Origin: Brachycybe producta
Taxonomy: Eukaryota > Arthropoda > Diplopoda > Playtdesmida > Andrognathidae
Assembly: GCA_036925085.1 (NCBI GenBank)
Contig: JAUPFP010000018.1
Span: forward strand, 2,985,885 to 3,049,884
DNA: 64,000 nt
Direction of reading: 5' to 3'
In this document: piece after piece, positions 20,252 to 45,660 of the stretch
How positions within the stretch are numbered: the stretch's first letter is position 1
How the letters are laid out: every line of letters starts with the position of its first letter
The notes under the pieces: generated by a model
What the model saw: only the letters and a program-made list of their open reading frames with translations
What the model was told of the DNA's origin: nothing
Database searches by the model: none
Position numbers and translations under genes: made by a program

Positions 20252-20662
20252 TCACGGATTAACAGCACGATGCTCCTTCCGCAGCATACAAAGTCTGCAG
20301 TTCTTGATGTAATTATTTACGGCCAACACGTTGCAAAATGCATAAACTTCCTTTACTTTGGATCGTGTTATAGGAGCGCATGGATGATTGTTATCGTCAT
20401 GAAACATCTTGAGAATGGCTGGTAATTCCGCCTGTCTTGCAACTGGTTTACCGGAAATCTGGTCCAAAACAACTTTTTGTCCATCTTTTATACCCAAGCA
20501 ATACCTCTTCTTAACTTTACTTTTCAAATCAGTCGAGATGAGTGGATCGGATTCGCCTTTTTGTAGTTCCAAACAGCGAATCATTTTCTCGTACAATGCG
20601 TCACTCGGATAAGTAATGTCGTCCACACCCTTCAGTGTTCGAGAATGGGATGGATCCAATTG
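20252..20662 (-). CDS. Candidate alternative 3' exon: integrase-type HHCC zinc finger (copy 4)
   Basis: The exon has 136 codons, from acceptor GGTTCTTGTGTGCAG (ending 20663), phase 0, to a stop after LRKEHRAVNP. It carries VDDITYPSDALYEKMIRCLE, LKSKVKKRYCLGIKDGQK, ISGKPVARQAELPAIL and FHDDNNHP to NCRLCM (HX4HX28CX2C). The frame happens to stay open for 68 more codons upstream, through a hydrophobic AT-rich stretch that looks like intron. This is the most distal exon found; more could lie beyond the window edge. Confidence 0.73.
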   Translation of the reverse strand, partial: QLDPSHSRTLKGVDDITYPSDALYEKMIRCLELQKGESDPLISTDLKSKVKKRYCLGIKDGQKVVLDQISGKPVARQAELPAILKMFHDDNNHPCAPITRSKVKEVYAFCNVLAVNNYIKNCRLCMLRKEHRAVNP

Positions 20663-21016
20663 CTGCACACAAGAACCGAAAATGTACTTTAAAATGCTGA
20701 ACTTGATTGAGTTTATATATAATAATAGTATATACAGGCAAACTTTTGCTAAGTAACCGAACGACAACAAAAAAAAAATAACAATTGGCAGAGTCAACGC
20801 AATATTTTTTTGTTTGTTGCAAAGATGGATTTCAAAATGACAAGGATTTTTTAAAAAAAAATACACTTGTTTCTGTTCGGCAACTCGGCTTTTGGGTAAA
20901 ATGTTAGTAATTTAACAATAATTGCAACGCGGTTCTATAAAAACAATATCACTGAATCATTCGGGGGGGGGGGGGGGGGGCCATCAATGTTTACTTTTCT
21001 GCCAGTGGTGTAGTTA

Positions 21017-21660
21017 AGAGATGGCAACAGGTAGAACCGGATGTGGGACATTTGCCCTAAAGGGACATTTGCCCTATAGACACTTTCCCTAAAGGGACAT
21101 TTGCCCTATACACACTTGCCCTAAAGGGACATTGGCCCTATGGACACTTGCCCTAACGGGACATTTGCCCTAAAACCCAGTAGATCCGAAACGTTTCTAC
21201 TCGGTTCGGAACCGATTTAATCGGTTCGCGTTTCTTTTTTTTTTTTTTTTTTTTGGAAACTGGTTCTGATCAGTTCGTGGACGGATCTTGTGCTGCAAAT
21301 TACGCGCAGTTTTGCACAGCACAAGATCGACGAAATGACCAGAACCCGTTTGAAAAGTTTCCTAATATGCATTCGCAGATTTGTGCTGCAAATTCTGCGC
21401 CAATATTGCGCAGATCTGCACAGCACATTAGTCTCTAATGTGCTGCGCAAATCTTCTACTGCATTTGGAACCGGTTCGTCAAGTTCGACGAACAGATCAT
21501 AACCCGTTTGAACCGTTTCCCAATATGCATTAGCAGATTTGCATAGCACATTAGTTAGCGGTGACGAAGGGTAGAACCGAACCGAATCTACTCGGTTCGG
21601 AACGAGTTCCGATCAGTTCGAACTATACTGGCGAACCGGTTCTATCAGTTGACATCTCTA
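21017..21660. mobile_element. Inverted-repeat element O (GAACCGGTTC-rich) containing a minisatellite
   Basis: The tips AGAGATGGCAACAGGTAGAA and GTTCTATCAGTTGACATCTC pair. The inside repeats CGGTTCGGAACCGAT and GTGCTGCAAATT.. GCGCAGAT words. Confidence 0.65.
21040..21178 (+). repeat. Minisatellite of GGGACATTTGCCCTA units
   Basis: Tandem array of about 18-20-bp half units (GGGACATTTGCCCTAAAG alternating with ACACTTGCCCTA..), so the composite period is about 37 bp. It lies inside element O. Confidence 0.75.
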
Positions 21661-22563
21661 GGTGTAGTCATGTCGGAGCTTATAGTTGGAGCGGTGCCTC
21701 AGTACTCTTTTTAGGACTGGAGCAAAAGCTCCAGTATAATATTTAAAATATTTACTTTCATATCTTTGTTATTTTCACTGAAATAATATGGTAATATTTC
21801 AAAATTACTGTCATTTTGATGGTTCTCCATTGCTAGAGAGAGAATTTAAAGGAAAACCCCATGGAAAATGATGAAATTTTCGTAGCTCGCTGAATGTATT
21901 CTGCAAGACAATAATTGTGATTCTATTAAAGTAGAACCTCGATTATCGGAACTAATATGTCTGACATGCATAGTTCCGATAATCAATGTTCTAACTGCAA
22001 TTTTGTTTTAAAGTTTTCAACTCACGAAAACATAAGACAATTCAGGAAAAAATGAATTTTGCTATGAAATTAATATGAAATCCTATCAACTTTTTTTCAA
22101 TTATTGGGTGTCGATAATATCGATATGCAAATTTCAACAGCTCCCCCCCCAAGCTTTCTTTTACAACCTACACCACTGCTTCCTTCACTAAAAACCATTT
22201 AAGGCCTTGCTAGAGGTCAATGAGAGAAACACTCAGAAATGATAGTTTTTGGAACTTTTTCTCTTCCGAAAACTGCTGTTTCTAAGTGGAAAATCTGAGT
22301 ACACTCTGAAATAATGTTTTTAACATTATTTCTACACTCTGAAATAATGTTTTTAACATTATTTCAGAGTACTCCGAAACCAAAAAAAAAACAACTCTGA
22401 AATACAATAGGGAATCTAGGGAAATGCAACACTGCAATGGTCACACAGCAGCATAGCGATTTACACAATTGCTTTTTGTTTTCAGAGTTTTCATTATGCT
22501 ATGTAGGCTGCAAATTATTTTCCGAGTTCCATTTTGTGGAATTTATGTTTTTGCAATATTTTT

Positions 22564-22771
22564 ACAGACAATTAGAAATCGGGACAAACAGAAGTTGGTT
22601 CCGCCCTTTTTATGACGAACGGCAACTTCTAATTGGTTTGGTTATGTAGTCTGACGTCACATGCTCCGGACCTTTTCAACGTCGAACCACGCAACAAACC
22701 AATTAGAAGTTGCCGGTCGTCATAAAAAGGGCGGAGCCAACTTCTGTTTCTCCCGTTTTCTAATTGCCTGT
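22564..22771. mobile_element. MITE-A copy 5
   Basis: Full-length palindromic copy with TGACGTCA and GC-box motifs. T-rich flanks (TATTTTT on both sides) are consistent with a duplication that has lost one or two bases. Confidence 0.8.
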
Positions 22772-23309
22772 TATTTTTTCATAGTTCTTTTCACTGAGCT
22801 CTAGCGAGGCCTTAAAATAAATGCGTGTTCCCCAGGATATCAGTATCTTAGAACATATTTGTGTCAAGCTTGCTTTTTTTTTTTTCTTTTTTTAAAAATA
22901 CACTTTTTATGGCATTTTGAAAACGATCAAATATAGCTTTTCCTTTTTCTTTTTAGGCTGAGTAAAAATTTTAGCCTGTTAGCGTTCAAAAACAATTTTT
23001 GTAAAAGCTTAAAAAAAAAAATGCGATAAAGAGGTTATTTTTAGGGTCATCAACAACATGAAAAAAAATATCTTAAGGGTGTGTTTTCTTTTTATTTTCA
23101 CTTTTTTCTAAAACATTTTCCATTTATTTCTTCTAAGTAGCTTTCTGAAAAGCGGCGACAAAAAAGCTCTTTTGAGGAGACTTTAATACCACTAAAATGT
23201 GTAACATGTAAGTTTAAAAGCCGTTCGCAGCATAGAAAACGATTAGAACGATTTTTTTAAAAAAACAAACAGATTATTTGAAACTAGAAGAGTAAAATTA
23301 AGAGACAAC

Positions 23310-24085
23310 ATCATAAAATTACTTCGAAAAATCTCCGCAAACAGCGCTAGCATCGTTTTTCTATTGAGCCCATACACCCATTATGTTAAAGAAAAAATGT
23401 TCATTTTTAAAATACAGTCAATGGCGGCAATATGTTTGTTTATTTTTCATATTTAAAGTTGTCCAATATTAAGTTTTCAAAGTGCAATGTGCGCCTTAAA
23501 TATATGCTGATCGAGTGATAGAATGACAAAAAATTGGTAAGTGCGGTTATATTTTTAAAAAACTATTTCAAAATCGCAAATGTCTAACTCTTATGTTAAA
23601 CGCCATTGATAACGCGCTCTCGTAAGCAAAAACATCCATTAAAAAATGCTCGTAAAAATACATGAAAATAATTTTAAAAAACCAAAAAGAAAATCACCAC
23701 GTGCGCCAAAGCGTTGTCTTTACAGTGGTTTTTAAAATTATTTTTAAGTTTTTTTTACAAGCATTTGCTTACGAGCACGCACTCAATGGAGTTTAACATA
23801 AGTTAGAAATTCGCGATTTTGAAATATGTTTTTTAAAAATAGAACCGCACTTACCAATTTTTTGTCATTCTATCACTCGAATAGCATATATTTAAGGTGC
23901 ACGTTGCACTATGAACCATCAAAATTGGACAACTTTAAATATGAAAAATAAACATAATGCCGTGACTGTGTATTTTAAAAATTAACTTTTTTTCTTTAAC
24001 ATTGGGTCTATGGGCTCAATAGAAGAAAAAAAAAAAACGATACTAGCGCTCTTTGCGTAGATTATTCAAAGTAATTTTGTGAAAA
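23310..24085. repeat. Large inverted repeat N (arms about 370 bp)
   Basis: The left arm (about 23310-23700) and right arm (about 23720-24085) share long inverse stretches: TAAGTTTTCAAAGTGCAATG, ATTTAAAGTTGTCCAATATT, GGTAAGTGCGGTT and AACTCTTATGTTAAAC. The centre holds CACGTGCGCCAAAGCG. Partial copies occur at 27560-27760, 43600-43790 and 61520-62150. Confidence 0.78.
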
Positions 24086-24526
24086 TAATATTTATTTGTT
24101 TCACAAGAGTTTTAAAATAAAACTTTTTATTACAGTTTGAAGTCGTTTATCGTTGTTCTTTATAGCTTTTGTAGTCATAAAACTGTGTAGCAGCAATATT
24201 TCTTAAAACTGATATAAAAGTTTATTTTGAAACATATTTTCACGAAAATTATCTATGCACAATTTGCACATATAGGCCCGATGCACACATCCTTGTTTTG
24301 TTAACGTTTAGCAGCAAAAAAAAAACCACGGATGTGTGTGCCCCTGATCAACATACAACAAGGTACTGAGAAACCGAAGTTGCTCGTACGGTGCTGTGGA
24401 GAATTACGGCACAAAATGCATCCAAGCTGGACGTGCGATGTCGGGGTAGGCCGAGGTAGGATGTGCAGTGCCCCCGTCTAACTAATAGACTCAGGCCATA
24501 GTCCTAACTCCGGCGCCACAGCTATG

Positions 24527-24779
24527 AGGCGCCGTTTGGGCCATATATATAGGTGAGAAATATATATGTGGTAGTGAGATTTGCAGCCGCGTCATGGCTC
24601 CGCCCATGTCATGACGACTGGTAACTTCTAATTGGCTGGTTATGACGTCAGACTTCATAATTAGAAGTTACCAGTCGTCATGACAAGGGCGGAGCCATGA
24701 CGCGGCTGCAAACTTCACTACCACATATATACCGTATACGATAAGTAATGTAATATACGGCCCAAACGGCGCCTCATAC
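24527..24779. mobile_element. Palindromic element with outer arms TATGAGGCGCCGTTTGGGCC
   Basis: The outer arms pair at 24523-24550 and 24757-24779. The core (24590-24715) is a second near-perfect hairpin with CAGCCGCGTCATGGCTCCGC and a MITE-A-like interior (CCAAT, TGACGTCA). It is either one long palindrome or a MITE-A relative inserted at the centre of another foldback. Confidence 0.65.
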
Positions 24780-24983
24780 ACAGCAAGCCTAGTTACCCTT
24801 CTAGATTCAAATACGGTTTTGAAAACTCGTTCATAAGTTGCTTCAAAAAAAAAAAAGCTTTACAATTGATTTGCTTTGAACATCTATAAAAGGCTTTTTT
24901 TCACAAGCAACTATATCATTAGCAAATTTGGATGACTAACTTCTAGAAAAATGTTTTGGACTCGACACACCAGCCATACTGGG

Positions 24984-25096
24984 GCAGACTAATCGTAGGT
25001 CACTAGGCGACCTACACTATTAGACATGAACTGTGGGTCACTCAGTGACCTACAGTTCTGAAGTATAGGTCACCTAGTGACCTACGATTAGTCTGC
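24984..25096. repeat. Palindrome with three AGGTCA-type inverted repeats
   Basis: The outer arms GCAGACTAATCGTAGGTCAC and inverse enclose three inverted repeats of an AGGTCA-like half-site, each with a 5-nt spacer: 24997-25013 (one mismatch), 25035-25051 and 25067-25083. Confidence 0.8.
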
Positions 25097-25153
25097 TCCT
25101 TACCAAATGTGATAATACTCTTGCAAGACTTAAGAGTGGTTTCTTCTTAAGAG

Positions 25154-25358
25154 ACAGGCAATTAGATATCGGGACAAACAGAAGTTGGCTCCGCCCTTTT
25201 TACGACGACCGGCAACTTCTAATTGGTTTGTTGTGTGGTTCGACGTTGAAAAGGGCGGAGCATGTGACGTCACACTACATAACCAACCAATTAGTAGTTG
25301 TTTTCGTCATAAAAAGGGCGGAGCCAACTTCTGTTTGTTCCGATTTCTAATTGCCTGT
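25154..25358. mobile_element. MITE-A copy 6
   Basis: This 205-bp copy has an exact 9-bp duplication TCTTAAGAG (25145-25153 and 25359-25367). The CRE palindrome TGACGTCA sits at 25265-25272 and a CCAAT box at 25287-25291. It is the best-preserved copy in the window. Confidence 0.9.
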
Positions 25359-25695
25359 TCTTAAGAGTGGGTTCTGTCTTACAGAACGCGTGCAGAAAAC
25401 TGTGCACGATTCACAACAATATTTGACTACTTGTCAGCATATACTGTATGTACAAAACGTTAAGAGTCACACACTTAGGCTTGCCACCTTTCCTCCTTTG
25501 TGGAGGACAGTCCTCCATTCGGAGGAAATGTCCTCTGGCCAGGGCCATCCTATACGAAGGCAAACATGTCCTCCCCACAATAAATTGTATAAAAACTTAA
25601 ATACGTTCATGGAGTCCTGGTCCTGGCCGGAGGACAGACCTTCCGAATAGCAGACTGTCCTCTACACGTGGCAAGCCTAGTCACACTACAGGATA

Positions 25696-26017
25696 AAACC
25701 TAGGACACACTATGCGTCAAATGCCTTCCAATGCTGGACGAATCATAAGATTGACACACAGTATGGCCGTGAGATGGATGTCGAGTGAGGGATACCGAGC
25801 GTCTAACGTTTCGACACTGGAGGGTATTGGGAAGGCATTCAGGCAGGTGTCGGTTTCCTTGCCTCGCGTCAAAGGTTTCCAATGTTTGCATGCCCCGACG
25901 TTGTATACCAATGGTAGACACATAGTCTGTGACCGGTTCATCAAGTGTCCAACTAGCAAATGTTGGAGACAAATATGGGTACAACGTTGGATACATAGCG
26001 TAGTGTGTCCTAGGCTT
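25696..26017. mobile_element. Inverted-repeat element I
   Basis: The tips ACCTAGGACACACTATGCGT and TAGCGTAGTGTGTCCTAGGC are inverse, and the whole 320 bp is palindrome-like. Long open frames on both strands here are symmetry artefacts. Confidence 0.72.
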
Positions 26018-26353
26018 AACAACAGTATTAAACTATACATTAATTTCCCTTCGCCTCTCTTGAAGTGTTAAATTTTTGGTTGACATTAGCTAACACAAGT
26101 TCACCATTTTGAAAACATGTTGATAACACGCCCACACAAATTTCTATGCGTAAACAATACGGCACATGTAGTGTTCTGGAACTCAAGTTCTTTTTAGTGG
26201 ATTTTTTTTTTAAATAACATCAGTCAAATCTTATTAAATATCATCCTGACAAACTGACTTGAAACAAATGCAACAAGAAATATTGAAGAGATTCCTATGA
26301 AAATCAAAAAAAAAAAAAAGATATCCAAAAGGCCACAGCATGTAGGAGGCCTA

Positions 26354-26737
26354 CTAGTACTGCTCCTTCCGCCGCTGACACACTTTGCAGTTTTTGATGT
26401 AGTTCTCAACGGCCTTCGTGTTGCAAAATGCATATTCGCACTGTACTTTCATTCGTGTAATCGAGCAACACGGATGACCAATATTGTCATGACATTGTCC
26501 CAAAATGGCTGCCATCTCCGACTGTCTTGCAATTGGTTTTCCAGTCGCCACGTCCAACAGAAGTTTACGACCATGTCTAAGTTCCAAGCGAAACTTGCGC
26601 CTAACTTTATGTTTAAAACTCGAAGGAATGAGAGGATCCGTTTCGCCCTTTTCCAGTTCAAAACAACGAATCATTTTCATGTAACAGTCATCACTAGGAT
26701 AAGTAACATCGTCCACACGGATATGAGGTTCCAATTG
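26354..26737 (-). CDS. Candidate alternative 3' exon: integrase-type HHCC zinc finger (copy 3)
   Basis: The exon has 127 codons, from acceptor GGTTCTCTTGTGCAG (ending 26738), phase 0, to a stop after CQRRKEQY. It carries VDDVTYPSDDCYMKMIRCFE, a basic KHKVRRKFRLE stretch, VATGKPIARQSEM and the zinc motif CHDNIGHP to NCKVCQ (HX4HX28CX2C, ligands all present). The open frame extends 15 codons above the acceptor, but that segment is the conserved intron tail shared by all four copies. An alternative view is that those upstream residues (KYVFGSLVQ) are coding too; copy 1 has a stop just above them. Confidence 0.73.
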   Translation of the reverse strand, partial: QLEPHIRVDDVTYPSDDCYMKMIRCFELEKGETDPLIPSSFKHKVRRKFRLELRHGRKLLLDVATGKPIARQSEMAAILGQCHDNIGHPCCSITRMKVQCEYAFCNTKAVENYIKNCKVCQRRKEQY

Positions 26738-27559
26738 CTGCACAAGAGAACCAAAAACGTACTTTAAAAGGCAGAACTTCAAATACGTTTATCCTAAAAT
26801 TGAATTACGTCTCGAAATTATACATGGTTCTTATGCGCTTTGCATCTTAGGGAATTAATTGTGTGCTTGAGAAACATTGCTTTATGGGATTCATAATTTT
26901 CTGGACACACTGGAATTGCTGTTGGTTTTATATTTTCTGGTTTTGACAATGCGTTATCGCATTCTGAACTTGAACTCTTGTACCTCTGCCACAGGCCATC
27001 TTATATCGAAAGAGCTCATACAAGTAGTTTAATAAGGCCGGTGACCATACACTGCCGCAAACAAAACAACATCGGGAAGTTTGAAACCACCTGGGGCCGT
27101 TTGCTTCGAGCAGAAAAGCCTGCAACAAACTGTAAAGTGGGAGCAGGCACACTGACGCGAGACAAAACGATTTGTTTGCTCCAACACAATAGTCGTGTTG
27201 TTTCGCCCAGTGGCGTAGCCAGGATTTCTTTTGGGTAGGAGGGGGGGGGGGGGGTCCAAAATGTTCTTCTTCAGAATAAAGCTAGTTGGCCCACTATGGC
27301 GCGCAGCGCCATCCAGAAGAATTTTCCATTGTATGCTTCATATGAAATCAAATAGTGTACCGTTCACTATAAGGCGACACGCTGCGACGCGCGAAACTCA
27401 CTTGCAGAACTTCCATGCCAGAAGTTTCAAGGAGAACCAATAAGAACTGTTTCCTTTCACCGTGGCGCGCCTCTTTGTTTGTGTGTTGTGGGAGGGAGGG
27501 GGAGGGGTAGACGAAAAGAACCAGAAAAGGGGAGGGGGAGAATGCGCTCACGTGACATT

Positions 27560-27760
27560 CTCACACCTCAAATTGTTAAGTGCGGTTCTATTTTTAAAAC
27601 AAATTTCAAAATCGCAAATTTCTAACTCCATTGAGTAAGCGCTCACGTAAGCAAGAAGAACATCCGTTAAAATATGCTCGTAAAAAATACCTAAAATTAA
27701 TTTTAAAAAAGCACAATTAAACCACACTGAAGCCAACACATTGGCGCACGTGCTGATTTT
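27560..27760. repeat. Partial copy of inverted repeat N
   Basis: Shares AAGTGCGGTTCTATTTTTAA, TCGCAAATTTCTAACTCC and CATTGGCGCACGTGC with the 23.3-24.1 kb and 61.5 kb repeats. Confidence 0.6.
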
Positions 27761-28238
27761 TTTCTGGCTTTTTTTTTAAATTACTTTGAAACATAAGACT
27801 ATTATTTTTCAATACGACGCAGATCGTAATTATATCTGTGTTGCAGCAACTGTTTAAAAGCTGCAAAACCACACCCGAAAAACGAAACTTGCGACCGATT
27901 TCTTGCAAAAAATATTTTGATTGTTCCCGGAAATGGTTTTTTTTTAAAAAAGAGCAACAATAAGAAATTCGAACTGTTTTTCGAAAATAAAATCGTTGAG
28001 CTGATGAATCGGAAAAGACTTTTTTTTAATAGAAATTATATTTTACGCTTGTAAAATAAACTTGTTACCGCAGTTATAAAAAGCCAAAAATAACGTTTGC
28101 AGGAAACGACAATAAAAAACCTGTAAACAAAAAGGGTTCTTTTCTAGGAAGTTTATTTTTTTGAAAATATTGCCACTAGAAAAATCAATAAAAGCTTAGC
28201 TATGGCAATATTATTATTATAACCACCCACATCAATCT

Positions 28239-28259
28239 ACTCTCTCTCTCTCTCTCTCT
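28239..28259 (+). repeat. Microsatellite (CT)n
   Basis: About ten CT units. Other dinucleotide runs: (GT)n 13327-13341, (GA)n 18997-19019, (CA)n 36853-36876, (CA)n 55849-55872 and (GT)n 61656-61674. Confidence 0.9.
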
Positions 28260-28397
28260 GGAACGCTCTGACGTGGAACCCTCTAACGTTGTGTCAGTGG
28301 TAACCGTTATACCTTTATGCCGCTAGATGGCGTTCGCAACGGCACTAATGCTCTGACGATGTGTCAGTGGTAACGATTATAATTACAACTACAATTA

Positions 28398-29585
28398 GTA
28401 CTCTGCTAGCAGCCAAATAGGCCTATGGCAGAGGGACATAAAAGTCCACAAGCAGCTTGACAATGCTTAATGCATTGTCAAGCACATGTATAAAAACAAA
28501 ATGAATATACAAATGTCAATCCCACAAAACAAAATTATTCCCATTCACCACTTCTTTCTCAGGAAGAGGGTTCCATTGTCTTTATAACTCTAGGGAAAAA
28601 AAGACCAATAATATGAATCTGTCCTAGCAAAAATCTCCCTAATTTTCTTAGAGTGGTCAGCCCTGCCCATGTATGGTGCTTTATGAATATCACTGGACTG
28701 CAGTTTAGGACAATCACCACGTGTAATTTTTCCAAACAATTTCAAACTTAATTCAGCCCTGCGATGTGCCAAACTATGCCATTGTAGCACTGACAACATC
28801 TCAGTGACACTATCTGTAAATTTGTGCCTGCCACAAACAAACCAAGCTGCCCTACGCTGAACCATTTCAACTGAATGAGTGTGAGACAGAGTGAGAATTC
28901 CATACACTGCAGCAATACCCAAGATGAGGCCAAACCAATGCTTGATAGGAAATAGTTTTAACTTATGCTGGGCAGGTGTCCAATGTCCTTTGACTAAAAC
29001 ATAGCATTTGTAGAGCTTTACCAGTAACACCATCAATGTGTTTTTTCCCAAGAACGGTCATCTGTCATTGTAACCCCCAAGTACTTATAACACTTGACAC
29101 TCTGAAGAATAATGTCATTCAAACTATAATTGAACACAATTGGATTTCTACCCCGAGTTAGCCTCATAACACTACACTTCCCCTCATTCAACTGAAGCTG
29201 TCCTGTATTACACTATCCCTCAATTGCCTTCAAGTTTAGAGCTAATGTTTCACAGTCTTGGATACCATCAACCTCTTTGTAAATTAAGAGTATCATCAGC
29301 AAATAGTCTACAGTTGCTGCCAACTGTGCTGCTGAGGTCATTAATAAATATCAGAAACAAAAAAGGACCCAGCACACTACCCTGGGGTACACCAGATTTA
29401 ATAGCCAACCACTCTGAGTGAGACCCATTTACAACTATTCTTTGTTTCCTATCACTTAAAAAAAAAGTTACCCATTTGGTTACCTGCCCCCCAACCCATA
29501 TGCTGCAACTTTTGCCAGAAGTTTTTAATGTGAAACAGTGTCAAATGCCTTACAAAAGTCAAGAAACACCATATAACCTGTCACC
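28398..29585 (-). pseudogene. LINE reverse-transcriptase 3' half, decayed (copy 1)
   Basis: Minus-strand remnants of a non-LTR reverse transcriptase in scattered frames: LDFCKAFD (about 29545-29570), SGVPQGSVLGP (about 29365-29399), the FADDT core of the YXDD motif (29291-29315), then VQRRAAWFV (about 28850) and ARTDSYYWSFFP near the C terminus (28590-28625). Frameshifts separate the parts and the 5' end is missing. Jockey/CR1-like by motif style; the clade is not settled. Confidence 0.8.
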
Positions 29586-29661
29586 ACTAGATGGTGGCAT
29601 ACATCAGTTATATAATATCTAAACATATATGATTTAGTTCAAAGGTTAACCATCCTAGGAC

Positions 29662-31182: not shown

Positions 31183-31295
31183 TTTTTAAATTCATCTCTA
31201 AGACAATAATATTCCTAAAACAAATGAAATACAATATAAATTAACCCAAACCACGGTCAACAATATCCTACTATATGAAATAGTTAGTTAGCACA

Positions 31296-32434: not shown

Positions 32435-32505
32435 CAATTTAAAAAAAAAACATGACACATTAACATACTTCAATGTAAAATTTAAAATCCATAGTGGTGT
32501 GTTGG

Positions 32506-33003
32506 CTAATTCAGTTGCATTGATGCGCTGTCTGAAATGTCGGCGTCTTCGATTGCTACATAAGAAACGGCTTCGGGACTAAACGAAGCCACGGTTTCGT
32601 GGCTAACTGCAGCCACATCTTCTTGACTAACTGTAGCCATGGCTTCTCGACTAACTGTGACCACGTCCCGTATTATTTCTTCGGATGGTGCGATACTCGT
32701 TACCGAACGAATCGTAATCTCTTCTTTAGCTTTTTTCCTTGGAGATTCAGAATTTTCTTGTGAATGGTTAACGTGAGCGCCATGTGATTCTAAATAGTGT
32801 ACTCCATCAATGACAATCGAAACTGCTTTTGCCGTACAGTTGAACATCCTCCTTTTGTCACAGGCCCAATAAAATGCGTGACATTTATCACTTGCCCTGA
32901 TTCTGTCTGACACTTTCACCATCTGGTAACCAGCAACATTTAACTTCGGTTTCCCTCTCGCTGACATGACGGTATCGCAACGTGTTAAGTTTTTTGGCAT
33001 TTT
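32506..33003 (-). CDS. mod(mdg4)-like: Candidate alternative 3' exon: FLYWCH zinc finger (copy 3) with Val/Ser/Glu repeats
   Basis: The exon has 165 codons, from acceptor TATTATTCACAG (ending 33004), phase 0, to TAG at 32508-32506. The FLYWCH domain comprises GKPKLNVAGYQMVKVSDRI, AFYWACDKRRMFNC and GVHYLESHGAHVNH. The tail is longer than in the sister exons. After AKEEITIRSVTSIAPSEEI it carries about four copies of an eight-residue repeat (pattern VSxExVAx) such as TVSQEDVAAVSHETVA, so it has expanded by repeat slippage. A minus-strand AATAAA (plus 32429-32434) lies about 75 nt past the stop. Confidence 0.8.
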   Translation of the reverse strand, partial: KMPKNLTRCDTVMSARGKPKLNVAGYQMVKVSDRIRASDKCHAFYWACDKRRMFNCTAKAVSIVIDGVHYLESHGAHVNHSQENSESPRKKAKEEITIRSVTSIAPSEEIIRDVVTVSREAMATVSQEDVAAVSHETVASFSPEAVSYVAIEDADISDSASMQLN

Positions 33004-34095: not shown

Positions 34096-34149
34096 CTGCA
34101 CACAAGAACCGAAAACGTACTTTAAAACGCAGAATTTAGCTTTTTATAC

Positions 34150-36020: not shown

Positions 36021-36021
36021 A

Positions 36022-36400: not shown

Positions 36401-36488
36401 TTAATAGTGAAAGCTAATTATGTCTAACAGCTTAGAAGCTAAATCATTTCTGGTAGTTAATGACCTTTAGATCATCAAATATGACAAA

Positions 36489-36908: not shown

Positions 36909-37199
36909 TTGTTTCTTTAGTTTTTCTTTAGCTTGGTTTGTGATTGTGAATGGCTATTAAAAGTTTACAACTAAGGGCTATTTGTATACACATGACAACA
37001 CATTTTAACTTGTTTTTCCGGTAACATGGAGAAAAAACAGCTGTTTTTTTTTAGTAATTCGTACAAAACATACAGTTTTTGTTATGATTATATGGTTTAA
37101 ATACAATTATTAGTCATACATAACACACAACCTCTAATCAACATATTTGTTAAACAAAATCATGCAAAATAATTACGTGTAGAGCATTATTCATACATT

Positions 37200-37735
37200 T
37201 CAAGCCCAATTAGGGTTTCCATTACCGGTTTTATCGTTACCGGTCTATTTTGTTACATATGTATTACCGGTAAATTGACCTTTCAATACCGGTTTGTCGG
37301 TAAAAAACAAAAATTTGATATTAATTTTGATAAAAGAATTGACCAATACTTAAAGAGCCACTGACTTTAAAATTAAAATTTCACCTAATTATAAGTAGAA
37401 ACCAATAGTTTTTTTTTCTTCAAAAAAATGATGTTCGTATGCACTTGTAACCGTTTACGAAAGTCGCCGTGAGGTCCTAACATAAATGTTCGTACAGCTA
37501 AAATCCTTTCCGTGGGATTATATATACCGTACATACTTAGGTGCTAAATTAACGCAACATCTTCATTTGTTACGCTTGTGACATATAAAACAATTATTAT
37601 GTATAACAAATATTAAAAAGTGATATTTTTCTTCGATTTTTGAGTTTTTTTTTTTTACAGTGCTTATTAAATTTACCGGTATTACCGGTTTCGGTAATGC
37701 CATAAGGTGGCTGGTAATGGAAATCCTAGGCTCAA
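37200..37735. mobile_element. TTACCGG inverted-repeat element
   Basis: The ends TAGGGTTTCCATTACCGGTT and GGCTGGTAATGGAAATCCTA pair. A related end lies at 32120-32226 (TTACCAGTAACGATAAAACC). Confidence 0.65.
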
Positions 37736-37744
37736 TCATCGAAC

Positions 37745-38095
37745 CGTTTATTCAATTCAACTCAATACACCGGCACTCAACTTAAAAGCCACGTGGCAGA
37801 AGGGGGGGGGGGCATTACTCCCGATCACAAATGATTGTCGTTCAGGTAAAACAAGACATCATTGTTAAATTGAAATCGTCCCAACAAAGGACCAGCAACT
37901 GGAAGAGAATTCCATAGTCTTAATAACAATCGGGGGAGAAAAACGACCAAAAACAAGCATCAGTTCTAGCCATTAATTCTTTTAATGTCTTTGAATGCCC
38001 GTTACGTGTCTTCCCTTACGAGGATGTACAGTATATATTCAATAAGTCATTAAGTAGGGCAATATTATCATCTGCCTGTAAACGTCCAAAAAGGA
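37745..38095 (-). pseudogene. LINE 3' end, second family (copy 2)
   Basis: Same segment as 15430-15790 with about the same endpoints, including a G-run just after AAAAGCCACGTGGCAGAAG. Confidence 0.62.
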
Positions 38096-38657
38096 CACAG
38101 ACATAAAGACCTGCCTGCACGCCAGGGTTGGCTGTTTTAAAACATTTTGTTTAAAACAGGTTGTTTAAAACATGTTTTAAACAGCATGTTTTTTTTAAAA
38201 AAAAACATTGTTTTAAATCAACCAATTTTTAAAGAAAATGTGCCAGTTAAATATTCATGAACTAAAATCATACAATCATGGTGATTTCTCTGTACAGACT
38301 GAAATTAGATTAGATTTATAGAATAAAAATGCCATTCACATCCACAACCAAAATGCTGGTCACTTTTGAATAGCTAGAGGAAGTGATCAGGTAATACTGT
38401 GAAACCTTAGACTATTACTTTACTGGACTGGCAAAACTCCCGAAATTATGTGTTGGACAGTTTTGCATCGTCGTTTTCAAAGTGGCGCCTCTAGCGGGAC
38501 TATGGTATATGAACATGAATAGTAAAAGTGAAGTTTTGGACGAGTTCATTTTGTAGCTATGTAGGGTGTATTTTTATATATTAGTATAAAAAGTATGGCC
38601 GATGAAGAACTATACAGGCATAGCCTCCTATAGATACTATCTATAGGAGGCTATGAC

Positions 38658-38700
38658 ACAGGCAATTAGAAATCGGGAGGGATGATCAGAAGTTCATTCA
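38658..38700. mobile_element. MITE-A left-end fragment
   Basis: Only the first tip (ACAGGCAATTAGAAATCGGG) and a few degraded bases remain. It directly follows a 38625-38655 palindrome built on TAGCCTCCTATAG. Confidence 0.65.
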
Positions 38701-39254
38701 CTGGCGTAGCGAGGGGGGGGGGGGCAGATGTGGCATTTGTCCTGGGTGCCAAAATGTGGGGCTGTGATAAAAATAAGGGCTTATACATATAGTATGATTA
38801 ATATGATTATAAATATAACATTGTCCCAAATCCCACTGACTGTGTTGTCAACTTGGCATAATCAGGCACCCTATAATAGTATTACTGTTACTGTATAAGA
38901 CCAGAAACCCTAGGAATGTTCCCAGCTATGCCACTAATTTCATTTGCTCTTCTAATAAATTCACCACACACTGTACACGACAAGTCACCAACTAGTATTC
39001 CAATTTCAATTCGAAAAATTAAACGTACAAATTTAACACGAAAAGCATTATTTTAATAAAAAAAACATTTTTTCTTAAAAAAAGTTTTTTTAAAAAAAAA
39101 ACATGTTTTTTTCCAACTCTGCTGCACGCAGTAGAAAGTGGCCAGTTCCCCCATTCCTTATACTGGATACACATAATATATGAGAATGCATGAGCATGGA
39201 AATAAACAAAGAACATGCACATACCATTATAAGGGCAGGTGGTTTATACTCCAA

Positions 39255-39449
39255 ACAGGCAATTAGAAAACGGGATGAACAGAAGTTGGCTCCGCCCTTT
39301 TTATGAGGAACGCAACTTCTAATTGGTTGGTTATGTAGTCTGACGTCCCATGCTCCGCCCTTTTCAACGTCGAACCCCACAACAAACCAAATAGAAGTTG
39401 GCATTCGTCATAAAAAGAGCGGAGCTAACTTCTGTTCATCCCGTTTTCT
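39255..39449. mobile_element. MITE-A copy 8, right end truncated
   Basis: The left tip ACAGGCAATTAG and body are intact. The right arm stops at CCCGTTTTC without the terminal TAATTGCCTGT. Confidence 0.75.
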
Positions 39450-40303
39450 TTGCAAAGCTTTGAAGCTCCTAAAATTAGCTCCCCAAAGCTTAGCTTGTTC
39501 ATACAAACACATGGTCTTGCAAGCTTCACTGCATTTTCTAACCTTTATACCCTATAAAACAAGATGTACAAAACAATAGAACCCTTCCCCTTCTGGAAGA
39601 AAAAAAAAAGGTGTGACTTGTTCACCCCAATTGTGTATCCGTTTCACAATTGGTGCTTTCTAAGTTGCTAAGCTCTGAAAGCGTGGAATCGGGGACTATA
39701 ATTGACAGTGCTTCACATTCTCGAGCCCTTTAATGTACGTATAGTATATACAGGAACGTGACGATTACAGAACGCGCACGACACGAGCTCGAGGAAAAAG
39801 CCTTTCGATTTATATTCACACGTGTGGGGAGTGACAACGTCCGTCGACTTGGAATTACATAACAAACGAGAACGGAGCGAGAGCGGAAAGAGATTCCTGA
39901 AAAATATCATTGGCAACGATAGTTGAGCAAGACCTGTTTGTGGCACGGACGAGCTCGGTGTCAATATAAACAGTTCTATTGAAAAACCTCCAACAATATT
40001 TTAGCTCGGGCTCGTGTCCTGCTCGTCCCGTAGTCGTTACGTACAAGTACAAAGCAACCCTAAATCGAAAGGCATTTTCCTCGGTCTCGTGTCGTGCTCA
40101 TCCCGCTACGTACCTGCATAAATAGACAATTACCTGTGATACAGGCTAGGCCTACAATTGAACACCAGAGTTGGCTCCCTGATACACTGTATTGAAAACT
40201 ATATTCCTTCAAAGACAATTACATAAAAGAACAAATACAAGTAAAGCAAGAAATATGAAACTTAAATACCAAAAAAAAAAACTTTCAAAAATTGTAACTT
40301 TTT

Positions 40304-40309
40304 TTTATT
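40304..40309 (-). terminator. Putative polyadenylation signal for FLYWCH exon 2
   Basis: AATAAA on the minus strand, about 105 nt downstream of the stop of the 40412-40816 exon. In AT-rich sequence this hexamer is common by chance, so position is the only support. Confidence 0.4.
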
Positions 40310-40411
40310 AAAAACTTTAAAAAAACCATACAGACAAAAGATAAACAACATAATCCCTTATTTTAAACATAATTCACATCTAATTTCACATCCCTCGGAC
40401 TCGTTGGTCCT

Positions 40412-40816
40412 CTAGCTGAAAACGGCATCTTCGCTACGTATACACGAATCGGTTTCTTCACTATACGAATTCATATCTTCAATTATTTTTTCAGGTTCTG
40501 CGATACTCCTTACGGCCGTAATCGTAATCTCTTGTTTAACTTCATCTGTCACTGTGGTTTTCGGACGGTTCGGTAAATGGTTCATATGTTCACCGTGCGA
40601 TTCTAAATAATGTACGCCATCAATGACAATCGATACTGCTTTTGCTGGACATCGGTTCGTCCTCTTTCTGTCACAAGCCCAATAAAATACGTGGCTTTTA
40701 TCGTTTGCCCTGATTCTGTCATGTACTTTTACCAACGTGTAACCAGCAACATTTAACTTTGGTTTCCCTCTCATTGACATGACAGTTTCACATGCTTGCA
40801 AGTTTTTGGGCATTTT
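40412..40816 (-). CDS. mod(mdg4)-like: Candidate alternative 3' exon: FLYWCH zinc finger (copy 2)
   Basis: The exon has 134 codons, from acceptor TATTATTCACAG (ending 40817) in phase 0 to TAG at 40414-40412. The FLYWCH domain is intact: GKPKLNVAGYTLVKVHDRI, VFYWACDRKRTNRC and GVHYLESHGEHMNH. The tail carries EVKQEITITAVRSIAEPEKI, in which VKQE fits a SUMO acceptor consensus, and then an acidic Ser/Glu-rich end. A minus-strand AATAAA (plus TTTATT at 40304-40309) lies about 105 nt past the stop, as expected of a terminal exon. It lies 0.95 kb downstream of copy 1 and is probably its tandem duplicate. Confidence 0.8.
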   Translation of the reverse strand, partial: KMPKNLQACETVMSMRGKPKLNVAGYTLVKVHDRIRANDKSHVFYWACDRKRTNRCPAKAVSIVIDGVHYLESHGEHMNHLPNRPKTTVTDEVKQEITITAVRSIAEPEKIIEDMNSYSEETDSCIRSEDAVFS

Positions 40817-40944
40817 CTGTGAATAATAAAAATTCAGAAAGAAAGAAAAAATAAACTTAAAATTCAGAGGGTTAACTATTTTTTCACAAAAAAAAAACGA
40901 GACACACCCTATGGATTATTTACTACGTACCATAAAGATGTATC

Positions 40945-41365
40945 CAGACCACTCGTGCTCGTACTCGGTGAGGTGGATCGTCGACAAGCCCGAAAAACGT
41001 GGACGGACTCGCTAGCCACGACACGAGCAGCACGAGTAACGCAAGCCAGGGGCTAATCTGCCTCCGCCTGGTGTCGGTACATCAAAGTGGTGCTCGTCAA
41101 GACTTGCAAGTCATTGGACGGGGACGCGAGCACAGTTTAGTTCACTCACTATACGCGTGTAGCGTCAACAATAAGTGCACGATAATAAAGTTTGCACTGG
41201 TAATCCACACTTCGTAGTCGGGCCATCGGATCCGCACGAGTTAAAAGTCTCTCGAGTAACTGAACTCAACAAGGAACTCCATCCTCGGTTGTCAAGAGCA
41301 CGATCTCGACAAGTCAACATGGACACAAGCCCGAGCCCGAGTAGGAGTAGTCTGGACGCACCTTA
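40945..41365. mobile_element. GTCCAGACYACTC inverted-repeat element
   Basis: The ends TGTATCCAGACCACTCGTGC and GTAGGAGTAGTCTGGACGCA pair. GAGC/GCTCG words are frequent inside, as in the 39710-40120 stretch, which looks like a relative. It lies just upstream of FLYWCH exon 2. Confidence 0.6.
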
Positions 41366-41399
41366 ACAGCGGAATAAAACAAGATTCTATGCATGATGC

Positions 41400-41640
41400 C
41401 ACCAACTGTTTTAAACTTTCTTTCTTTGCTATACGCATAATCCACTACTTCGCATGCTGTTCTTTGTGTGATACACTGCCACCTGCTGAAATATTTGAAA
41501 ATAATCCACACTGCACGGGGGCTTGAACCCATGACCAACATTAGTACTGTACATTACCATGGGCTGAGACACTAACCAATACACCAGCAAGACAAGAGGA
41601 GATTACATCTTGTTTTACTTTTTAGACCATTTTTGACCTC
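41400..41640 (-). mobile_element. tRNA-derived SINE, copy 2
   Basis: The minus strand reads CTTGTCTTGCTGGTGTATTG then GTTAGTGTCTCAGCCCATGG and GGTTCAAGCCCCCGTGCAG, followed by TATTTTCAAATATTTCAGCA. This matches copy 1 over both boxes and the tail. Confidence 0.65.
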
Positions 41641-41763
41641 CGTACACCTCCGTATATAGGATCATGAAAGAAAAGGGGCAAAAAAAGATGTCTGTATGTC
41701 TGGATGCCCGAGTTTGTGGGTCGAACAACTCAACTTTAGCCGTTTCACACAGTACTAATGCGT

Positions 41764-42165
41764 CTAGACGAAATGGGCACTTTGGTTGGGTATATAGGGA
41801 CCGGCTTCTTGACTAACTGGATCCAGATCATGAAATATTTGTTCAGGCGCTGCGATACTCCTCGCTGTCGTAACCGAAATCTCTTGTTTAGCTACTGTCA
41901 TTGTTGTTCGTGGACGTTCCGGTAAATGGTTAACATGAACACTATGTGATTCTAAATAGTGCACGCCATCAATGACAATTGACACTGCCTTTGCTGAACA
42001 GTTGTTCGCTTGCCGTTTATCGCAGCACCAATAGTATATGTGGCGTTTATCGGATGCCCTTATTCTGTCGCACATTTTTACCATCGTGTACCCCGAAACA
42101 GTTAACTTCGGCTTCCCTCTCGATGACATGATAGTTTCACATGCTTGTAAGTTTTTTCCCTTTTT
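41764..42165 (-). CDS. mod(mdg4)-like: Candidate alternative 3' exon: FLYWCH zinc finger (copy 1)
   Basis: This exon of 133 codons starts after TTGTTATTCGCAG (ending 42166) in phase 0 and stops at TAG 41766-41764. It encodes a FLYWCH zinc finger: GKPKLTVSGYTMVKMCDRI, then IYYWCCDKRQANNC and GVHYLESHSVHVNH, supplying the Cys and His ligands. FLYWCH ends are the variable parts of mod(mdg4) isoforms and bind DNA or protein partners such as insulator proteins. Where the two sister exons have AAA ATG at the start, this one has AAA AAG. The ATG is therefore not a conserved initiator, and the exon must be spliced to upstream coding sequence. The tail shares AKQEI..ARSIAAPEQI with its sisters. Confidence 0.78.
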   Translation of the reverse strand, partial: KKGKNLQACETIMSSRGKPKLTVSGYTMVKMCDRIRASDKRHIYYWCCDKRQANNCSAKAVSIVIDGVHYLESHSVHVNHLPERPRTTMTVAKQEISVTTARSIAAPEQIFHDLDPVSQEAGPYIPNQSAHFV

Positions 42166-42489
42166 CTGCGAATAACAAAATTCAGAAAAAAACTTAAAAC
42201 AATTTTCGCAGGATTTCACGCTTTCACATAAAAAGGGGGTAGTCACACCTAAACATTCTGGCATACCATATAACATAAGAAAGAAAAAGCTGTGAAAAAC
42301 AATGCGTCATTTATACAAACTAGCTATGCTCTGTGTGGAAATCTCTTAAGTTTTCCATTGCACTTACTGGTGTAAAACACGCAGAAATTAATTGTCCGCT
42401 GGTTTAACTTGACATTCTTTGATTTTCTATGCAAAAATCTGCAACTGGGTAGAATGTAAATAGCGCGCGCCACGAACAAAACCAGTGAA

Positions 42490-43164
42490 GCCAAGTACAC
42501 CCCAGGATTCTTTGATACGATACATTGTTGCGGGGCTGCTCCGATACAATGTTGCGGGGCAAGAATCGCAACTGACGCGACTCAGACCCGCAACATTGTT
42601 ACATGTCCACATCTATACTCAAGTTTCTCTCTCCATCCTTCTGGCTTTCACCATGTCATTATCACCTGCGGAAGTGGCCCTTTCAATATGTGCTTACACT
42701 GTCATTGATCAAGAGGGGCGAATAAAACAGAAACGGTGGTGGTGGGCACTGTGGGCGCACAAGCTTTTCTCAGCCGAGAACACATTCAGGTCACCCTGAA
42801 ATTAGGAGATGGGGCAAGAGTTCGAAATCCCCAAAACACAATTTAGTAGTGAATTTTTACACAGAAGGTTCTCAAGTAGTTTAACAGTATTTTAAAAGCC
42901 TAGTCTTTAATAAAACCAAACTCAGCTCTTCTGAGTCTTTGTTCGTGTTTCAAAAAGCGTCCACACTATGAAATGTTTCGCAACAATGTTTAAATGTTTC
43001 CCATGATGGGAGTAAAAAAAACATGAATCTGAGCCGACGCGATTCAGCCCCAAATCATTTCGGCATTATTGCGGGTCTGAATCGTAACTGAAGCGACTCA
43101 GCCGCAATTCACACTCAATCACAACATTGTATCGCAATAAAGTATCCAGTTGTGTACTACCCTT
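42490..43164. mobile_element. Inverted-repeat element E, copy 3
   Basis: The tips AAGTACACCCCAGGATTC and CCAGTTGTGTACTACCC pair. The interior matches that of 3410-4139 in inverse order (for example GATGGGGCAAGAG versus CTGCCCCATCTTCC). It lies in the intron just above the FLYWCH exons. Confidence 0.68.
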
Positions 43165-43599
43165 AAGAAATGATATCACAATAATGTACAGTTGCACACG
43201 CACACTAGCACCTTTAGCAGAAGCCTAACAGCGGGTGGGGGTCAGAGTTGTATTAGTATTATCTTAGACCATAAAACTCCGAGACTGGCAACTCGTAATG
43301 TGTTGAATGGCGACAAATAATGAAAACTACAGCAGCACCTTCTAGTTGGTATATTGTGAACTAAGGGTTTAGCCAATGAACCAACACCTTCCATTTTCTC
43401 TTAAATGCTAGTAAAACCATTTCCCGCTATATTAAGCGGTGCTGATCGAGGCTATACTGTCACCACTAACTTCAAGCATCGCATTTTCCCAGAGTTGACA
43501 GTCCCAAAGTGGGATGGCCTAAGGTATTATATTAAACACCTACAAATTATCTTGTTATGTTACAAAAGAACGTGCAATTGTCTCTGCCTAAATACTAAA

Positions 43600-43795
43600 C
43601 TTTGCCATTAAGAGGTTAACATCACAAAATTCCTTCGAAAAATCTCCGCAAAGAGCGCTAGCATAGACCCAATGTTAAATAAAAAATGTTAATTTTTAAA
43701 ATACACAGTCGCAGCGGCAATATGTTTATTTTTCATATTTAAAGTTGTCCAATATTAAGTTTTCAAAGTGCAATGTGTGCACCTTAATCCAAATC
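43600..43795. repeat. Partial copy of inverted repeat N (one arm)
   Basis: Shares CTCCGCAAAGAGCGCTAGCA and TTAAAGTTGTCCAATATTAA with the left arm at 23.3 kb. Confidence 0.62.
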
Positions 43796-44158
43796 GCACA
43801 AATCGTCTGAATAATGTGTGTGTGGACAGTAGTGATATTAACATACAGTAGGACATAAAGCCTCCAGTTACAATCTGCAACTCCCACGACCTTTATGTGT
43901 CCCAGTATGACGTATGTAGTGAAGCATATTGTGGGACTGAAGTCTAGTTTTTGGTTGCATATTAAAAACCAATAGATTTAGTCCAATTTCCAAAAAAAAA
44001 AAATAAGTTGTCTTTGGTTAAAAGCAAATGTTTATTTTAAAAAAAACCAAGCGGTTAAAACCATGGTTTTAACCACAACCACAATGGTTAAAACCAAGTC
44101 ACCTTGATGGGAAGGTTATTACCAATACAATAGGAAAAGCTAACTTAAAACACTTTCT

Positions 44159-44310
44159 ATGGATCCTATTGTTATTGCTGTAGAAGAGATAATTAAGCAA
44201 CTTCTAAAGTTAGATCCAAATAACAGCTGTGGTCCAGATGGAATACTGTACATGCCGCTAGTTACAGTATTTCATGTAAGCTTGTATGTCATGTATAGCA
44301 TGAAATGGCA
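44159..44310 (+). pseudogene. LINE reverse-transcriptase N-terminal fragment
   Basis: The frame reads IKQLLKLDPNNSCGPDGIL, the motif that opens the RT domain of many non-LTR elements (LDPNKSxGPDGI). The frame then runs into unrelated sequence. Confidence 0.6.
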
Positions 44311-44432
44311 CACCAAAGCATTGTCACGGTTGTTAGATATATCATTAATAAATATATCATATAACATATTTTTAATTATTCCATTTTTACTATTTTCACA
44401 CAAAACAACTGTATTTAAAACTTATAATTAGG

Positions 44433-44838
44433 GATGGAACATTCGGATCCCCGAATCACGCGAATGTTGAAAAATATCCGAGATTCGAAAACTCGAATCT
44501 TAAAGAGCTTTTTTTCGTCTTTCGAATCCTAACCCTGAAAAAAACTGTTAAAAACTTTGGTAAAATTAGTTTTAACTCCATTGACGTCCAATAGAAGCGT
44601 TCACTAACAAATAAAACGGCGATTGTTGTAATTTCGGTGGTCGACCCGGATCACCTTGTGGCGACCCTCAGTGCCACACTGTTTTTTTGTTATTATTAAT
44701 AATTTAATATTTAATATTATGTCATTTATTTGTATCTTCTTAATGAATAACATAGGACTCTTATATGAAGGATTCGAGAGATTCGAGGCCCTTTTAGGAT
44801 TCGGATTCGAAAAAAATTAGGATTCGTCCCACCTCTAA
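44433..44838. mobile_element. TTCGAATC inverted-repeat element M, copy 2
   Basis: Starts GGGATGGAACATTCGGATCC and ends GGATTCGTCCCACCTC. The centre matches copy 1 in inverse orientation. Confidence 0.68.
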
Positions 44839-45237
44839 AAAATATCACACAATAAACTGTGTACCAGCCAGTGAAAACTTCACTTTTTGTTTACTGGCAG
44901 AAGTGGGCACTTTCAGAATCTGAAATCCGTTTCGTTCCATCACGAAATTCATTTGGTGTTCAGATCCTAAGCAAACCAAAATTTGCTCGCACAGTTTCAA
45001 AACTGAACGCACCCAGTGTCACAAATGTGCAAAGCACCAATTTCTGCCAGCAAGTTTTCGGGGTGAAAATCACAGAAAGTGTGCTGGGCAAACAAACATT
45101 AGTGGCAATTAAACATGGCATAAATGAAACAAAAACTCCGATTGTACTATATATCATATCCTCTAATCCACTATTTCACTACATTTTTTCTCTAAGCTTT
45201 TGAAAACCTATATTCGGATATTGTTTAAAATGTCTTC

Positions 45238-45660
45238 TCAAATAGGTCCCTGTTTACTCATGGAATCCTTTCGAGACTGACAAAATTTGCAGTTTTTCAC
45301 ATAATTTCTGACAGCAAGAACATTGCAAAATGCATAAACTTCTTTTATGTAGGACCGAACAAGAGTGGCACCCGGGTGACCACTCTCATCATGAAACCTC
45401 CTCAAAATGGCTTGCATTTCAGACTGTTTCGCGATCGGTTTGCCTGTCTTCACGTCGAACACCCGTTTTTGACCACGTTTTATTTCCAACCGACATCTGC
45501 TCCTAACATTGCTAATTTTGCTTTTCACAAAACCAGAGATGCGTGGATCATATTCTCCTCTTTTCAGTTCCAAACAGTGAATCATTTTCTCGTATAAGTC
45601 GTCAGTGGGGAAAGTGACATCGTCCAGACCCTTCAGATATCGAGTGTGCGATTCCATTTG
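45238..45660 (-). CDS. Candidate alternative 3' exon: integrase-type HHCC zinc finger (copy 1)
   Basis: This exon of 140 codons runs from acceptor GTATGCAG (ending 45661) to TGA, in phase 0. It opens QMESHTRYLKGLDDVTFP, followed by a block shared with the other three copies (YEKMIHCLELKRGE, KRGQKRVFDVKTGKP, ILRRFHDE). It closes with a zinc-binding motif HX4HX28CX2C (FHDESGHP to NCKFCQ). This spacing fits the H2C2 domain that precedes the catalytic core in LTR-retroelement integrases and persists in domesticated genes such as KRBA2 and GIN1. No integrase core (DDE) follows. Upstream in frame there is a stop close to the acceptor, so the exon cannot start much further out. It is the most divergent copy, with His replacing Arg in the EKMIRC block and extra residues around 58-60. 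Confidence 0.7.
   Translation of the reverse strand, partial: QMESHTRYLKGLDDVTFPTDDLYEKMIHCLELKRGEYDPRISGFVKSKISNVRSRCRLEIKRGQKRVFDVKTGKPIAKQSEMQAILRRFHDESGHPGATLVRSYIKEVYAFCNVLAVRNYVKNCKFCQSRKDSMSKQGPI

Follow-up and report, generated by a model that had tools for sequence, protein, structure and literature searches.

The BTB locus and its exons

We analyzed a stretch of 64,000 nucleotides (hereafter, the window) from the 295 Mb genome of the millipede Brachycybe producta, namely, positions 2985885-3049884 of contig JAUPFP010000018.1 (C18:2985885-3049884); coordinates given without a prefix are window positions. The window contains the first exons of a gene encoding a BTB domain and, 3' of these and on the same, minus strand, four paralogous exons (e1-e4), each encoding a zinc finger of the integrase type (H2C2), interleaved with three exons that encode FLYWCH domains (f1-f3; Table 1). 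All seven exons are in phase 0 and match the BTB donor, and the arrangement fits alternative ends of a BTB gene. All exon joins described here are predictions from splice sites and phases in genomic DNA.

Exon 1 begins with FCLRWN, in agreement with the FxLRWN start that marks the arthropod TTK-type BTB (PMC11426971). A counterpart of exon 2, KSEPLEVNEPQIELLMDD, was recognized by eye in P0003, the probable millipede orthologue.

Table 1 Exons and acceptor elements of the BTB locus. Exons e1-e4 run from the first base past the AG acceptor through the stop codon; the acceptor elements are the adjoining last 30 intron bases.
Feature	Position	Strand	Evidence
Common exon 1: start codon and TTK-type BTB/POZ, MGSQQFCLRWNNH...	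59387..60118	-	Pfam BTB, 97 bits
Common exon 2, TEPVELLSEPPIELLMDTNPNYDLDM	59205..59282	-	end ATG/gttagt, phase 0
e1: lead block and integrase-type H2C2 finger, 140 aa	45238..45660	-	PF17921, 38.7 bits
e2: H2C2 finger, 129 aa	33706..34095	-	PF17921, 31.4 bits
e3: H2C2 finger, 127 aa	26354..26737	-	PF17921, 34.4 bits
e4: H2C2 finger, 136 aa	20252..20662	-	PF17921, 25.8 bits
Conserved acceptor element ahead of e1	45661..45690	-	30-base intron comparison
Conserved acceptor element ahead of e2	34096..34125	-	30-base intron comparison
Conserved acceptor element ahead of e3	26738..26767	-	30-base intron comparison
Conserved acceptor element ahead of e4	20663..20692	-	30-base intron comparison
f1: FLYWCH terminal exon	41764..42165	-	PF04500, 30.7 bits
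f2: FLYWCH terminal exon	40412..40816	-	PF04500, 30.3 bits
f3: FLYWCH terminal exon	32506..33003	-	PF04500, 27.4 bits
Predicted linker exon 3, SSDRTRLHDTLTGLHSDGLSQPSTSGTQLGGQ	7097..7193	-	phase 0 in, phase 1 out
Psq exon, outside the window	C18:2966434-2966580	-	33.4 bits
Psq exon, outside the window	C18:2958611-2958736	-	30.3 bits

Integrase-type finger exons

An earlier note, made from the letters of the window, had described four paralogous minus-strand exons with an integrase-type zinc finger and a common lead block of 80-90 residues. All four exons are present with complete HX4HX28CX2C ligands, the block measures 82-89 residues upstream of the first histidine, and every exon passes the Pfam gathering score for Integrase_H2C2 (PF17921; 25.5 bits), e4 barely so. 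The HX4HX28CX2C pattern occurs four times in the six-frame translation of the window, compared to a mean of 0.01 and a maximum of 1 in 100 two-base-block shuffles, and in 4/4 exons the spacing falls within the range HX3-7H(X23-32)CX2C quoted in PMC5384227. In the profile scan, neither the integrase core (rve) nor a C2H2 finger matched in the four exon frames.

The amino acid identity among e1-e4 is 55-62%. The first methionine of e3 is residue 20 of the exon reading, and that of e4 is residue 27, so that these two exons need an upstream exon.

The four exons evolve under constraint. In all six pairwise comparisons (NG86), with nonsynonymous divergence (dN) of 0.25-0.35 and synonymous divergence (dS) of 0.78-1.24, dN/dS is 0.20-0.41, a rough estimate given that dS is near saturation, though well below 1; YN00, which solved four of the six pairs, yielded dN/dS of 0.18-0.50. 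The reading frames are open in 4/4 exons despite dS near 1. Thus, the purifying selection previously suggested for these copies is borne out, whereas the codon drift cited in its favor, at the arginine of the EKMIRC motif (CGA, CGT, CGC), holds for three copies but not for the 45 kb copy e1, which has histidine (CAC) at this position. For the three FLYWCH pairs, the NG86 dN/dS is 0.42-0.47. In comparisons of e1-e4 with the fifth copy of the finger exon described below, dS is 1.65 and 2.69 in two pairs and not computable in the other two; in comparisons with the related gene on C35 (see below), it is not computable in any of the five pairs.

The conserved acceptor element

The last 30 intron bases ahead of e1-e4 are nearly the same, with 26-29 of 30 positions identical in all six pairs, whereas the adjoining 30 bases agree at 8-17 positions only. 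Such agreement of the acceptor element, next to exons with dS near 1, implies constraint. The 18-nt core of the element (with two ambiguous places) was found at the e1-e4 sites and at one other place in the 295 Mb genome; a reversed control pattern was found at two places. The acceptor common to the FLYWCH exons is another one and is less well conserved (17-19/30). Most likely, the element fixes the branch point and the tract, and it may be bound by a factor.

The element also holds a stretch that resembles a 5' splice site, AAAGTACGT (AAAGTACAT in e4), directly ahead of the 3' splice site; contact with U1 at this stretch would be possible. In Dscam, a docking site in the pre-mRNA serves as a pairing partner. 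We looked for such a partner of the acceptor element, and the best duplex has -28.5 kcal/mol, compared to -25.6 to -32.5 kcal/mol for 12 single-base shuffles, which lends no support to this mechanism.

Polyadenylation signals lie 507, 102 and 71 bases downstream of e1, f2 and f3, respectively.

FLYWCH, linker and Psq exons

The FLYWCH exons exceed the PF04500 cut-off of 23.6 bits, and the two Psq exons, located outside the window, exceed the Psq cut-off of 20.4 bits. The latter were found via weak protein matches (E-values of 0.004 and 1.5e-4), and their acceptors, judged by eye, are in phase 1. The predicted linker exon 3 was located by its PSTSG motif during a hunt for an additional common exon between exon 2 and the ends; it contains SQPSTSG, and in P0003, a similar SQPSTSG stretch comes after the segment that resembles exon 2 (compared by eye). 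From the phases, exon 2 appears to be joined either to an H2C2 or FLYWCH exon or, in competition with these, to the linker exon, which the Psq exons appear to follow. Elsewhere in the genome, three consecutive FLYWCH-like open frames (L029, C94:231449-234670; one with an E-value of 0.008, the others recognized by eye) lie 16 kb from a BTB exon at C94:215089, probably, a second BTB-FLYWCH locus.

A mod(mdg4)-like gene is defined by a BTB exon upstream of FLYWCH exons (PMC4667647), and by position, the locus has this composition, with the BTB and three FLYWCH exons on one strand. The earlier identification of the gene as mod(mdg4) is nevertheless not supported: among relatives of known species, the closest BTB by identity is that of an unnamed millipede gene (85%), and linker and Psq exons follow. 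The gene is a BTB-FLYWCH-Psq composite rather than simply mod(mdg4).

A protein search with the BTB region gave 5976 matches, and the following applies to the 120 of them that were listed. The lowest E-value belongs to a protein of Aedes albopictus that bears the name bric-a-brac 1 (62% identity); by identity, one protein reaches 86%, a protein of the millipede Chamberlinius 85%, and further proteins of Chamberlinius and Strigamia 75-82%, followed by those of the horseshoe crab and ticks. This one domain would, by itself, point to a myriapod as the probable source. The named matches among the 120 are bric-a-brac, tramtrack, abrupt and longitudinals lacking, and the rest are unnamed myriapod or chelicerate proteins. 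The domains of these relatives include BEN and Psq as well as, presumably, going by their accessions, C2H2 and Tc5/CENPB-type helix-turn-helix domains.

A tandem BTB copy and a fifth finger exon

A second BTB exon (C18:3069094-3069453), 95% identical over 120 residues to that of the window, lies 23 kb upstream and is followed by its own exon 2, in phase 0 and 50% identical over 20 amino acids to the window exon 2 (E-values of 0.02-0.03). Between the two BTB exons, just outside the window, we identified a fifth H2C2 exon (C18:3050949-3051293) that is 56% identical to e2, scores 42.2 bits for PF17921 and has a possible phase 0 acceptor (judged by eye). Thus, the BTB plus H2C2 design recurs in the tandem copy, with a phase 0 finger exon of its own. 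This is the single 3' exon recognized for the tandem copy; a second linker exon was looked for near it, and none was found. The fifth copy has an ATG directly ahead of the conserved block (MPSKPIDD...).

At the DNA level, the BTB stretches of the two copies (59747-60121 and C18:3069082-3069456) are 91.7% identical, whereas divergence is much greater in the linker region that follows and in the finger exons. Such a difference would be expected if the BTB exon had undergone gene conversion.

Relatives of the finger exons in the genome

Searches of the genome with either e2 or the fifth copy as the query produced the same ranking of relatives. The five exons are followed by a gene on C35 (126.7 and 118.3 bits) that shares both the lead block and the finger, then by two adjacent frames on C4 (58-60 bits) and one frame on C54 (28-30 bits); the remaining integrase-like frames score at most 25 bits. 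Among the 150 matches listed (180 candidates), the 141 below C54 start at residue 40 or later of 127 and extend over the finger with, at most, the stretch ahead of it, never over the first part of the lead block; many of these matches sit in open frames of 1,000-2,500 codons, probably, long terminal repeat (LTR) elements. The finger of the C35 and C4 frames scores above the PF17921 cut-off (37.1, 32.9 and 29.9 bits), and that of C54 below it (23.6 bits). Their rve core falls below the 32.6-bit cut-off in C35 (17.3 bits) and C4 (28.0 and 28.6 bits) and gives no match in C54. This ranking, together with the finger and core scores, indicates that the module belongs to a small integrase-derived family, and that the exons correspond to its N-terminal part without the core. 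The kinship of the exons to the C35 gene and the C4 pair, with other integrase-like frames at or below 25 bits, does not support a capture of the domain straight from a gypsy-class element.

The free-standing relatives on C35, C4 (C4b) and C54 have a methionine at about the position of the ATG of the fifth copy. In the best tree of the finger family, both the C35 gene and the fifth copy branch outside e1-e4, with weak support (ultrafast bootstrap, 43-84; Shimodaira-Hasegawa-like approximate likelihood ratio test, SH-aLRT, 66-93). Ginger1-derived integrase genes have a YPYY motif upstream of the finger; the exons have (Y/F)P near the start and DP ahead of a basic stretch, which may or may not correspond to it.

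The two neighboring integrase-like frames on C4 (L020 and L021; 363 and 385 aa) consist of a finger, a weakened core and an acidic tail and are probably a tandem pair of domesticated genes. We also considered orthology of the relatives to Imagin. Imagin sits in an intron of MMUT, but crab orthologues away from there are noted as well (PMC12863088). By synteny, this orthology is not supported: all nine MMUT matches are on C5, and the relatives are on C35, C4 and C54.

Alternative explanations

The introns of the locus hold many dispersed repeats, and a repeated LTR or DNA transposon might have been inserted into introns of the BTB gene, with the four copies as members or remnants of it. The domain is, after all, of the integrase type, and integrase frames abound in the genome (150 scored PF17921 matches among 1816 candidates); moreover, a reverse-transcriptase-like frame (29268-29540), recognized when the flanking frames were read by eye, lies 2.5 kb from e3. 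Apart from the H2C2 and FLYWCH exons themselves, the direct repeats of at least 90 nt between 18 and 48 kb of the window fall into two families with units of roughly 90 nt (63-89% alike) and a single pair of 285 nt (18186-18470 and 47588-47872), the members of which are 92% identical, 29 kb apart and enclose the entire finger and FLYWCH array. Copies of a 93-nt repeat family flank e2, e3 and e4 on both sides. However, these 93-nt repeats are only 63-77% alike, do not flank e1 and recur through the window in both orientations, which argues that they are not LTRs, and the repeat comparison revealed no LTR-like pair around each copy, so that the expectation that the copies are not enclosed by intact LTR elements stands. 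The genome search found five close copies, which lie on a single strand of C18 in the vicinity of the two BTB exons; the four frames matched no integrase core in the profile scan, remain open at dS near 1 and share a splice acceptor. We therefore consider the transposon origin of the copies in place highly improbable.

The exons might, instead, be small independent genes or belong to another minus-strand gene. The ATG of the fifth copy and the methionines at a similar place in C35, C4b and C54 are compatible with this possibility, and so is the lack of a nearby polyadenylation signal for some of the exons. It is, nevertheless, unlikely because e3 and e4 have no methionine before residues 20 and 27, the acceptor element is conserved in 4/4 exons, the phases match the BTB donor, no other donor exon was noticed by eye among the frames of at least 90 amino acids, and the exons are interleaved with FLYWCH exons, which are known partners of BTB in mod(mdg4) (PMC4667647). 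If the exons do join the BTB exons, the join could occur by trans-splicing, as in mod(mdg4) and lola of Drosophila, rather than in cis. The known trans-spliced loci are BTB genes with many 3' ends (PMC4667647, PMC11426971), and a tandem BTB copy with one recognized 3' exon might borrow others; yet the parts in the window lie in order, on one strand and within 55 kb, so that cis-splicing suffices, and cis-spliced mod(mdg4)-like genes have been reported in Daphnia, beetles and Hymenoptera (PMC4667647). Trans-splicing is thus unlikely here.

Frames resembling reverse transcriptase and gag of mobile elements were also recognized by eye between exons of the locus at C18:3058970-3063660 and C18:2973858-2983223.

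A probable exapted integrase module among the ends of a BTB gene

Taken together, these observations make it probable that the locus is a BTB gene with alternatively spliced ends, some of which carry an exapted integrase zinc-binding module. Of the earlier proposal, that a captured and duplicated integrase domain provides isoform ends of mod(mdg4), the integrase type of the domain, the dN/dS below 1 and the BTB arrangement are retained, whereas a gypsy source and the mod(mdg4) identity are not supported.

Several results weigh against this interpretation. The phase 0 donor of exon 1 (AAAG/gtttta) is weak, as judged by eye, and the near-saturated dS limits the precision of the selection estimates. 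For e2, e4 and f1, the nearest polyadenylation signal is more than 1.2 kb off, and none was found in the 1.5 kb that follow e3. The 30-nt acceptor element is missing, by eye, before the fifth copy. The AlphaFold models, with a helix-rich lead and three strands ahead of the finger, have middling confidence (mean predicted local distance difference test, pLDDT, 71 and 63), and a fold search with the e1 model matched no solved fold significantly; a sequence search of solved structures likewise produced no relatives at E<=10. None of the 120 listed BTB relatives has the H2C2 or FLYWCH profile of the window, and no protein relatives of the finger exons were detected at E<=10 among 66 and 2889 length-filtered candidates; the H2C2 module may be lineage-restricted or unannotated elsewhere.

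Under the scenario of an alternatively spliced BTB gene, exons 1 and 2, encoding the TTK-type BTB and a linker, would be transcribed together with the downstream exons and spliced, in phase 0, onto any one of a set of terminal choices: four ends composed of the lead block and the H2C2 finger, three FLYWCH ends, or a path via linker exon 3 to the Psq exons. In the simplest case, the integrase module would have been recruited once, without the catalytic core, and then duplicated in tandem, with selection retaining both the protein and the splice acceptor element. The BTB domain would multimerize the protein, and each end would provide a different DNA- or protein-binding surface; by analogy with the variable ends of Mod(mdg4) and the HHCC finger of ZBTB11, the H2C2 ends could be recruitment modules.

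A more speculative extension, which we put forward as a long shot, is a combinatorial end selector, in which the two tandem BTB fronts draw on a common pool of ends, at least five of them with integrase fingers, three with FLYWCH and two with Psq domains. Each class would have its own conserved acceptor element and a class-specific splicing factor, so that the cell could switch the targeting head by class; a BTB repressor with an integrase head could be guided to the ancestral mobile elements, at their ends or via their products.

If the interpretation as alternative ends of a BTB gene is correct, a domesticated transposon domain need not be fused permanently to a regulator gene but can be added to it by splicing, as a spare ending, and such an ending can afterward be expanded into a small repertoire that is under selection. 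With the conserved acceptor element, exon choice in BTB loci of this kind becomes directly testable.

Comparison with known systems

The claim that no such combination had been described was too broad. A BTB domain together with an integrase-like HHCC finger has been published for the vertebrate protein ZBTB11 (PMC5384227), and a screen (PMC12062965) has this combination as its largest domain pairing, with 808 of the 828 such proteins in chordates. The ligands of the ZBTB11 finger matter for function: mutation of any of them abolishes activity in a rescue assay, whereas deletion of the N-terminus does not (PMC5384227). The two architectures differ, however. In ZBTB11, the finger, with the spacing HX6HX29CX2C, precedes the BTB domain, and C2H2 fingers are located at the end (PMC5384227), whereas in the window gene, the finger, with the spacing HX4HX28CX2C, follows the BTB domain and is encoded by four predicted alternative terminal exons, without C2H2.

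The combination of TTK-type BTB exons with many alternative 3' exons, including FLYWCH, is shared with mod(mdg4) and lola (PMC4667647, PMC5666082, PMC11426971); the window locus differs in that Psq exons follow, and the word 'integrase' does not appear in PMC5666082 or PMC11426971. Recruitment of Mod(mdg4)-67.2 to Su(Hw) sites depends on its specific C-terminal part; removal of FLYWCH lowers the recruitment, yet the truncated protein rescued the mutant phenotype (PMC5666082).

The retention of an H2C2 finger in a host gene is also known from Imagin, which has a dead core, and from Gin-1 and Gin-2 (PMC12863088, PMC2836005). These, however, are free-standing domesticated Ginger1 integrase genes, most of them with the core (PMC12863088, PMC2836005), whereas the window exons lack it.

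Alternative BTB ends with FLYWCH are, accordingly, already known (PMC4667647). Within the limited literature that we searched, what is new is the use, in an arthropod, of several copies of the finger as C-terminal ends that would be alternatively spliced and that share an acceptor element. If confirmed, it would be, along with ZBTB11, the second, apparently independent pairing of BTB with an integrase finger, which would suggest that this finger serves chromatin proteins in a way that can be reused.

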